A stretch of 28,987 nt of DNA from the IMG/VR virus record IMGVR_UViG_3300047297_000034, positions 1 to 28,987 of that record; one strand, written 5' to 3'. Source of the DNA: a virus. Positions 1 to 1,574 of this stretch are shown here, one piece after another. Each line of letters begins with the position of its first letter. Within the stretch, counting starts at the first letter, position 1. The position numbers and the translations under genes are program-made. Below the pieces are notes generated by a model. That model searched no databases and was not told where the DNA came from. It worked only from the letters and a program-made list of their open reading frames with translations.

Positions 1-460
1 AAAGAGCAATCATTGCAGCGTCAGCGCGACCTGAGTCTTTGACACGAGCAAACAAATGTTGGTCATCTGGGTGCAGCTCCATGCAGCGATGACGTATCGC
101 GTCCTTGCCCTTACCGCAGCCAGTTGCCTTCATCCATGTTTGTGGTGTGATGTATGTGACTGGAACCGATAGAGCTGACAGCGATCCTTCGATAATTCCT
201 GCTGCACGACCAAAGGCAAACATCGAGCTGACGCCTTGGTTTGGCATTGCACCGACCTTCTCAACGAATGCGTGCGTTGGTGCAAGCTCCTTGATGACCG
301 CTGCAACGCCTTGCGCTGAGACTTGACGCTTTGCCTTGCCACCGCGAACGACCTCCACGACAGGCATATCTACAACTCGGTCCAGCTTGCCGTCAACGTA
401 CAGAGCGAATGCACCGAGCGCACCGACATCGACACCCATAACTCTTACTGGCGCGATCAT
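1..460 (-). CDS. RuvC-like Holliday junction resolvase (3' end outside window)
   Basis: The first 153 residues are visible; the C-terminus lies beyond the left edge. The fold looks like an RNase H/RuvC nuclease: an N-terminal strand carrying GVDVG (Asp11), a second strand FVEKVGAMPNQG (Glu67), the FAFGRAAG helix, and a C-terminal DSGRADAAMIA with acidic residues 142 and 148. These match the four metal-binding acids of RuvC-family resolvases. Phage versions resolve branched DNA during replication or before packaging. The ATG at 458-460 overlaps the stop of the upstream helix-turn-helix gene as ATGA, so the two are probably translated together. The family call is strong; the exact substrate is inferred. 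Confidence 0.85.
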   Translation of the reverse strand, partial: MIAPVRVMGVDVGALGAFALYVDGKLDRVVDMPVVEVVRGGKAKRQVSAQGVAAVIKELAPTHAFVEKVGAMPNQGVSSMFAFGRAAGIIEGSLSALSVPVTYITPQTWMKATGCGKGKDAIRHRCMELHPDDQHLFARVKDSGRADAAMIAL

Positions 461-681
461 GGCTGACCGATCTTGTCAATGGACTCTAGGCGTGCCGCTA
501 TGAGGCGATCTACGGCATCACGAAGGCGTTGCATTGAGCTGACAAGGGGAACGGTAGTCCCGCGCTTCCAGCGGCTGAATGCGGCTTGATCTATGCCAGC
601 CTCGCGGCAGACCTCAGCCATATTGAAGCCAGCTAGACGCGCTCGCTCTTGAATCTCTTGAATGTAGTTTGGATTTGTCAT
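457..681 (-). CDS. Small helix-turn-helix (XRE/Cro-like) regulator
   Basis: A 74-residue protein. Residues about 17-45 (GFNMAEVCREAGIDQAAFSRW) read as the two helices of a Cro/XRE-type DNA-binding motif, followed by KRGTTVP and a helical C-terminal half that may dimerise. The ATG at 679-681 is chosen because the protein then begins just before the helix-turn-helix. The frame stays open upstream to 873, but that stretch covers a terminator hairpin and looks non-coding. No clear Shine-Dalgarno precedes the ATG. It sits back to back with the early promoter, so it is probably a repressor or switch protein for that promoter. It overlaps the resolvase gene by 4 bp. Confidence 0.75.
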   Translation of the reverse strand: MTNPNYIQEIQERARLAGFNMAEVCREAGIDQAAFSRWKRGTTVPLVSSMQRLRDAVDRLIAARLESIDKIGQP

Positions 682-721
682 GGCTAAGATGTTAAGCCAT
701 AATTGACTTGAACGGCAAGAC

Positions 722-755
722 AAAAAAAGGGGCAGAGTCCTGTCACCCTGCCCCT
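722..755 (-). terminator. Intrinsic terminator reading leftward
   Basis: Perfect 8-bp inverted repeat AGGGGCAG (728-735) / CTGCCCCT (748-755) with a 12-base loop. An A7 run at 722-728 overlaps the foot of the stem and becomes U7 on the minus-strand transcript. No T run follows on the plus strand, so it acts only leftward. It lies about 40 bases upstream of the regulator's start codon. Confidence 0.85.
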
Positions 756-774
756 GTGAAGGCAACTGCCAGCA

Positions 775-804
775 GGAGAAACCAGCAGTCAGGGGGAGAA
801 ACCA
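775..804. repeat. Two direct copies of GGAGAAACCA, 20 bp apart
   Basis: GGAGAAACCA occurs at 775-784 and again at 795-804. The exact two-turn spacing (20 bp) could suit a DNA-binding protein. On the minus-strand RNA the same repeats give paired anti-Shine-Dalgarno-like motifs. Confidence 0.6.
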
Positions 805-812
805 CACCCCCG

Positions 813-836
813 ACAACAATTTTATGAGTTTGTTGT
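813..836. repeat. 7-bp perfect inverted repeat, possible operator or hairpin
   Basis: ACAACAA at 813-819 and TTGTTGT at 830-836 form perfect arms separated by 10 bases. It lies between the two divergent transcription units, where a repressor operator would be expected, but it could equally act as an RNA hairpin in a leftward transcript. Confidence 0.5.
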
Positions 837-857
837 GAAAATAATACACATTGGGTG

Positions 858-885
858 TTGACAAGGTAGTCAAGTGTGATATGAT
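858..885 (+). promoter_or_regulatory. Early sigma70 promoter, extended -10
   Basis: TTGACA (858-863, perfect -35) and TATGAT (880-885, 5 of 6 for -10) are separated by 16 bp, with TG at 877-878 giving an extended -10. Transcription should start near 892 and run into the operon that begins at 917. The arms TTGAC (858-862) and GTCAA (869-873) form an inverted repeat over the -35 box and spacer, a natural site for repressor binding. A looser dyad, AGTG (873-876) to CACT (887-890), surrounds the -10 box. Confidence 0.85.
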
Positions 886-916
886 TCACTCATCAACACA
901 GCAACTGGAGAGAAAC

Positions 917-1126
917 ATGAACAAAGACAAAATGATTGAACTGTTAGAAAACGGTGCTTCTTTTGATTGGGTCAATCGCAAGTTTTTTCACCCTAGCTTT
1001 CGCAAAGGTTTTCGCACAATATCTTCATCAAACATTTCTTGGTTGGCAGTAGAGCGTGTGCATGGAACTTTTGGCACAAACCGTCTTGTCGAAATTGACA
1101 ATGTTTTCACCCTCAAAGCAGCTTAA
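917..1126 (+). CDS. First early-operon protein, unknown
   Basis: A 69-residue protein of unknown function. The start is the ATG at 917, which has GGAG (907-910) six bases upstream and lies about 25 bases after the predicted transcription start. It has an N-terminal amphipathic helix (KMIELLENG) followed by an aromatic and basic stretch (FDWVNRKFFHPSFRKGFR) and a predicted strand-rich C-terminal half. No membrane segment or known motif is visible. By reading, it looks richer in A/T than the next genes. Being first after the strongest promoter, it should be among the most highly made early proteins, which fits a host-takeover or regulatory role; that is inference only. Confidence 0.7.
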   Translation: MNKDKMIELLENGASFDWVNRKFFHPSFRKGFRTISSSNISWLAVERVHGTFGTNRLVEIDNVFTLKAA

Positions 1127-1140
1127 TAGGATTGATACCC

Positions 1141-1365
1141 ATGAAACCAATCAAACTTCCCAACCTGAACGACACGACTCGTGTCTATCCACGCACCGAG
1201 GCTGACGCCTTCCGTCAGAACTATTACGACATTGAGCGCCAGCGTAATTGGGAGTGGCTGGAAGGTCACGCTGATAGCGTTGCCAACCAAGTCGAATTCT
1301 GGACATACATCGCGCTTGCCTTTGCTGCTGGCTTCTTGACTCATTTGCTGTGGGGTGCTGCATGA
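1141..1365 (+). CDS. Small membrane protein with C-terminal helix
   Basis: A 74-residue protein with a soluble, charged N-terminal half (many Arg, Glu and Asn) and one hydrophobic segment at the C-terminus, FWTYIALAFAAGFLTHLLWG. This predicts a tail-anchored inner-membrane protein with most of its mass in the cytoplasm. The ATG at 1141 is preferred over an in-frame TTG at 1132, because AGGA at 1128-1131 is well spaced only for the ATG. The stop overlaps the next start as ATGA. No family is recognised. Confidence 0.7.
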   Translation: MKPIKLPNLNDTTRVYPRTEADAFRQNYYDIERQRNWEWLEGHADSVANQVEFWTYIALAFAAGFLTHLLWGAA

Positions 1366-1574
1366 CCTACCCAAAGAAACAAGCAGAAGCGCAGATGATC
1401 TTTCGCAAGACTGGTGGCTTCGTTCAAGGCAATATGACATTGCGTGATTATTTTGCAGGTTTGGCGATGCAAGGCATGTATGCCGCGCATAAGTTTCCAT
1501 CTGGAATCATTATTGATACGGCTAAAGAAGCCTATGAAATGGCAGACGCCATGCTTGAGGAGCGCATCAAATGA
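1362..1574 (+). CDS. Conserved small phage protein (TLRDYFAG type)
   Basis: A 70-residue protein containing MTLRDYFAGLAMQGMYA and, near the end, AKEAYEMADAMLEER. This pair of motifs is common in small hypothetical proteins of proteobacterial phages and prophages; no function is known to me. The ATG at 1362 overlaps the preceding stop (ATGA); a GTG at 1350 is also in frame but less likely. Predicted all-helical and cytoplasmic. Confidence 0.7.
   Translation: MTYPKKQAEAQMIFRKTGGFVQGNMTLRDYFAGLAMQGMYAAHKFPSGIIIDTAKEAYEMADAMLEERIK

Follow-up and report, generated by a model that had tools for sequence, protein, structure and literature searches.

A conserved predicted small RNA gene with two anti-Shine-Dalgarno loops beside a helix-turn-helix regulator in a clade of tailed phages

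The lambda OOP RNA is short, runs leftward to a terminator and lies in the control region of the phage. OOP is antisense to the cII mRNA, the loops of the C4 RNA of phages P1 and P7 pair around a ribosome binding site, and lambda PreS is described as a phage small RNA (sRNA) that acts on a host mRNA, dnaN, with Hfq (PMC12197685). Descriptions of the bacterial AbcR sRNAs give them three stem loops, with two anti-Shine-Dalgarno motifs in unpaired regions that are presumed to contact ribosome sites (PMC7143759). Outside the model temperate phages, few pairing sRNAs encoded by phages are known, and the locus described here provides a clean, covarying family.

The window (the whole stretch of DNA that we analysed, 28,987 nucleotides) belongs to a tailed phage, as indicated by its portal, terminase and tail-spike families. 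Its nearest named relative is MW202879 (TerL 68%). No tyrosine integrase was found in 16 related records, and no serine integrase in 13. The window (1-28987) is probably a fragment, with related records of 34-38 kb and a RuvC gene that reaches its left end.

Between a helix-turn-helix (HTH) regulator gene (457..681, minus strand, 74 aa), which is the constant neighbour of the RNA, and the rightward early promoter (858..885, plus strand; TTGACA-16-TATGAT, 11 of 12 consensus positions, kept in relatives) we found a predicted sRNA gene of about 91 nt on the minus strand (722..812), with its 5′ end near 812 and its 3′ end in a T run near 722. The predicted fold of this RNA has three hairpins (-45.2 kcal/mol, z -3.8), and 0 of 200 shuffled sequences folded as well. 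From 5′ to 3′, hairpins 1 and 2 are followed by UUGCCUU, which is unpaired, and by a terminator that ends in a U tail. Hairpin 1 (792..811, minus strand) carries GGUUUCU, the first anti-Shine-Dalgarno-type motif (795-803), in its loop, and hairpin 2 (764..790, minus strand) presents the second, UUCUCCU, as a 7-nt loop. Exact copies of GGTTTCTCC are found on the minus strand at 783-775 and 803-795, one per hairpin, and nowhere else in the window. The conserved stretch UGCCUUCA, 3′ of hairpin 2 (756..763, minus strand; family motif GUUGCCUU), is unpaired in the window fold. It is followed by the intrinsic terminator (722..755, minus strand), an 11-bp stem plus T7; the corresponding match at 755-728, 11 pairs and then TTTTTTT, is the sole terminator-like match in positions 1-2400. 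These results confirm the original prediction of a leftward terminator behind an RNA with three hairpins and two GGTTTCTCC copies. The RNA is 90-101 nt long among relatives and its lengths vary off frame, which indicates that it is non-coding. For the same reason we rejected coding upstream of 681 in a 138-aa open frame that spans 457-873 on the minus strand.

The RNA is widespread among viral relatives. The RuvC-like neighbour (2-460, minus strand), used as a query, returned 69 viral loci; their upstream regions can be aligned and retain the RNA in full, with divergence on the side of the early gene. A DNA pattern built from the three RNA motifs found 90 stretches. With its structure set by hand, a covariance model detected the RNA in 63 of the 79 pattern loci searched, and the same model detected it in 39 of 67 RuvC loci, the model's own sequences included; the window RNA (722-812, minus strand), itself one of these sequences, scored 81.5 bits. 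In a separate search the HTH protein returned 66 loci, and the RNA lies directly before the gene in all 64 that have upstream DNA. These 64 contigs come from 54 metagenomes, and one of their RNAs is cut at its 5′ end. Exactly one RNA copy per genome was found in all 16 longer records. The most distant HTH relative (L259, 49% identity) lies outside every model and had not been returned by the pattern search, and it carries the RNA at 38.3 bits with layout and fold unchanged. The presence of the RNA in every relative examined, at HTH identities down to 49% and with invariant loops, suggests that the phage very likely needs it.

The aligned RNAs also support the structure. Across 48 distinct aligned RNAs, 97.6% of the cells are paired. 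We counted 226 double changes, compared with 69 in shuffles and at most 23 with slid partners; they occur in 15 of 24 pairs and are spread over all three helices, namely in 4 of 6 pairs of hairpin 1, 4 of 8 pairs of hairpin 2 (98.4% of cells paired) and 7 of the 10 modelled pairs of the terminator (99.6% paired). The first RNAalifold models, made on a sequence-only alignment, had mis-registered hairpin 1, so that the structure was set by hand. The alignment used here (A3) was fitted to this hand-set structure, and single sequences were hence folded without alignment: all nine gave three hairpins as modelled, with z values of -3.8 to -6.9. The comparison supports the RNA gene itself, the strand that encodes it, its structure, the invariant motifs of its loops and its constant position ahead of the HTH gene, and from it we consider the existence of a leftward RNA gene at 722-812 near certain. 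The relatives accordingly support what was originally proposed for the region from the HTH gene to the early promoter, namely a non-coding leftward RNA that is intrinsically terminated and has anti-Shine-Dalgarno loops.

The stems vary freely in sequence, while the loops and the UUGCC stretch are nearly unchanged. GTTTC in loop 1, TCTCC in loop 2 and the stretch (A/G)GTTGCC(A)TT occur in 44 of 44 distinct RNAs, and these invariant motifs fall in loops or unpaired parts of the folds. The complements of GUUUCUCC and UCUCC, namely GGAGAAAC and GGAGA, are sites of the Shine-Dalgarno type, although by chance a CU-rich loop can match any Shine-Dalgarno site. One group has GUUUCCC as loop 1 with the CCC paired, giving a weaker anti-Shine-Dalgarno part there.

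When 4227 Rfam families were compared with the window, none matched at its gathering score. The best weak scores of bacterial sRNA families came from RF00519 (MmgR; 21.1 against a cut-off of 41 bits) and RF02345 (ar15/AbcR; 15.4 against 40). RF02345 comprises AbcR1/AbcR2 (ar15) and RF00519 comprises MmgR (ar8, suhB), both from alphaproteobacteria and placed in Rfam clan CL00108. Membership of the phage RNA in this clan was rejected, its covariance scores being far below the curated cut-offs. The predicted folds nevertheless contain the three stem loops and unpaired anti-Shine-Dalgarno motifs that mark AbcR/MmgR. Both are small intergenic RNAs with three stem loops, one or more unpaired CU-rich anti-Shine-Dalgarno motifs and a terminator U tail; unlike AbcR/MmgR, the present RNA is encoded by a phage beside an HTH regulator and has an invariant GUUGCC stretch. 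By analogy, the resemblance to AbcR/MmgR in probable mode of action is good. With C4 the RNA would share the principle of loops directed at a ribosome site, but C4 has a defined phage target, the ant mRNA, whereas no conserved phage target was found for this sRNA among the crudely called start sites. PreS differs in belonging to another phage and another locus.

We think it rather probable, judging from sequence comparison, that the RNA functions as a free-standing, trans-acting sRNA with two anti-Shine-Dalgarno loops, and this is the function that we favour. The RNA of about 91 nt would act in trans as an antisense RNA: its CU-rich loops (GGUUUCUCC and UCUCC), perhaps together with the UUGCC stretch, would base-pair at the ribosome binding sites of several mRNAs and reduce their translation, with Hfq probably bound to the U tail. 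The main targets would more likely be host mRNAs, because the phage gene starts offer no conserved partner; when such a partner was sought among start sites, which were called crudely, the best sites in different phages belonged to different genes. A broader proposal is more tentative, and we put it forward as a possibility somewhat short of even. It holds that the RNA represents a new family, fixed in a phage clade without a detected integrase and paired with a leaderless HTH regulator, that early in infection silences sets of host mRNAs by acting at their ribosome binding sites, as a functional counterpart of the bacterial AbcR-type sRNAs. Once a host is cultured, targets can be sought directly with the covariance model and the conserved motifs.

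The near-invariant loops and UUGCC stretch, set among changing stems, would also fit recognition by a protein. The RNA could then be a decoy that binds a host protein, such as Hfq, another RNA-binding protein or RNA polymerase, and does not pair with mRNA, as would be consistent with the lack of a conserved pairing partner among phage start sites. We consider a decoy unlikely, however, since the CU-rich motifs of the RNA complement Shine-Dalgarno sites, the layout is that of known pairing sRNAs, and the RNA is unlike any Rfam family at its cut-off.

A closer target had been suggested for the RNA at the start, with positions 762-783 pairing to the ribosome site (901-916) of the first early gene (917..1126, plus strand, 69 aa); in an OOP-like reading the RNA would thereby repress this gene. 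The complementarity is present in the window as described, between the repeat GCAACTG...GGAGAAAC and GCAACTGGAGAGAAAC (901-916), that is through GCAACTG and GAGAAAC, and the loop-only score of the window early leader lies at percentile 0.11 of 65 start sites. The layout, a short leftward terminated RNA in a phage control region, is also that of OOP. Antisense control of this gene is, however, not supported by the relatives. Of 44 distinct early leaders, 2 contain GCAACTG and 3 contain GAGAAAC, yet the RNA motifs are in 44 of 44 RNAs. The first early gene is not kept at this place: the leaders diverge after TCAACAAC and the first genes are non-homologous between relatives, so that leaders and first genes change and the RNA stays. 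RNA-RNA pairing prediction placed the own leader mid-rank among swapped leaders (mean rank 0.52; 0.78 for the window), with mean duplex energies of -22.0 for own and -22.1 for swapped leaders, and the window duplex was no better than with its shuffled leader (z -0.03). These whole-RNA energies are dominated by hairpin arms and are weak evidence, and loop-only scores were added; they gave the first early gene a mean percentile of 0.35 among Shine-Dalgarno starts. We also compared the base after loop-2 CUCC with the base before leader GGAG. Where the RNA has U, 13 leaders have A and 2 have U; where it has G, 17 leaders have A, 8 have C and 1 has G. This was rejected as a pairing signal, ancestry explaining the pattern equally well. 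Pairing with 901-916 may exist in the window, but on the leaders compared it cannot be the reason for conservation of the RNA, because the leader pieces are rare and own-leader pairing is no better. The likeness to OOP is therefore one of layout, without overlap or conserved pairing with the early gene, and repression of the OOP type appears improbable here. The slot after the early promoter and TCAACAAC (window 886-1140; L178-L242 in relatives) holds differing small first genes, like exchanged cassettes, and the second gene of the window (1141 on) resembles the first gene of relative L239.

The RNA and the HTH gene appear to have separate promoters. A probable -10 box of the RNA, TAAAAT, lies 6 nt before its start (819..824, minus strand), and TA(A/C/G)AAT was found 5-8 nt upstream of the RNA in 51 of 51 distinct relatives; TATTAT at 841-846, in which the leftward promoter had originally been seen, is not the conserved element. 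We looked for a consensus -35 at the sRNA promoter and saw none, so it is possible that this promoter needs an activator. An ACAACAA/TTGTTGT repeat just upstream is outside the RNA and confined to the closest relatives. The -10 box of the HTH gene, TAACAT (689..694, minus strand), is downstream of the terminator and 7 nt before the ATG, and in 51 of 51 distinct relatives (T/C)TA(A/T)CAT precedes the HTH start codon by exactly 7 nt; in L259 the promoter reads TTGACT-18-TACAAT-7-ATG. With the -10 box at this distance, the HTH mRNA is probably leaderless across the clade and starts after the terminator. This arrangement bears on the attenuator reading, which the original prediction had allowed and in which the HTH mRNA would begin with this RNA as its 5′ leader and some transcripts would pass the terminator. 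The RNA and the HTH gene share a strand, and the distance from the RNA end to the HTH start codon is always 40-44 nt, as would suit a leader. But the HTH gene has its own conserved -10 box, with a TTGACT -35 in L259, and the folds showed no antiterminator alternative to the one dominant three-hairpin structure of each RNA. We consider attenuation very unlikely. With its own -10 before the RNA and the separate HTH -10 after the terminator, 722-812 (minus strand) is by these signals a free-standing sRNA gene with its own predicted promoter and intrinsic terminator. The HTH protein has a weak match to the phrog_4 transcriptional repressor (E 6e-4). TTGACTA/TAGTCAA-like repeats (689-708, 855-899) are present at the early promoter and the HTH promoter and, in one group of relatives, also at the RNA promoter; counted without a null comparison, they are possible operators of the HTH protein.

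Although the inverted repeats can be read on both strands, a DNA element or a rightward RNA in place of the leftward one is hardly credible, since the aligned RNAs hold 171 G-U cells versus 0 A-C cells, which fixes the leftward strand, the opposite strand would pair in 82.5% of cells only, and the T run is on the leftward side only. Covariation, this strand asymmetry and the 64 of 64 co-occurrences with the HTH gene together argue that the leftward RNA is more than chance.

Among named phages, a DNA search with window positions 400-1400 gave no match, and phiM5, Venkman, MW202711 and MW202496 lack the RNA; a 21.6-bit RNA match in MW202879 adjoins a capsid gene and was taken as chance. Bacterial genomes gave four pattern matches, none confirmed as RNA copies, and hence no prophage, host copy or host name. 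In 369 genomes of one class a single match was found and rejected, as it reads as a tRNA-like sequence beside a terminator. In two viral relatives, L033 (3436-3999) and L042 (3463-4005), an HNH-homing-endonuclease-like gene lies between the HTH and RuvC genes.
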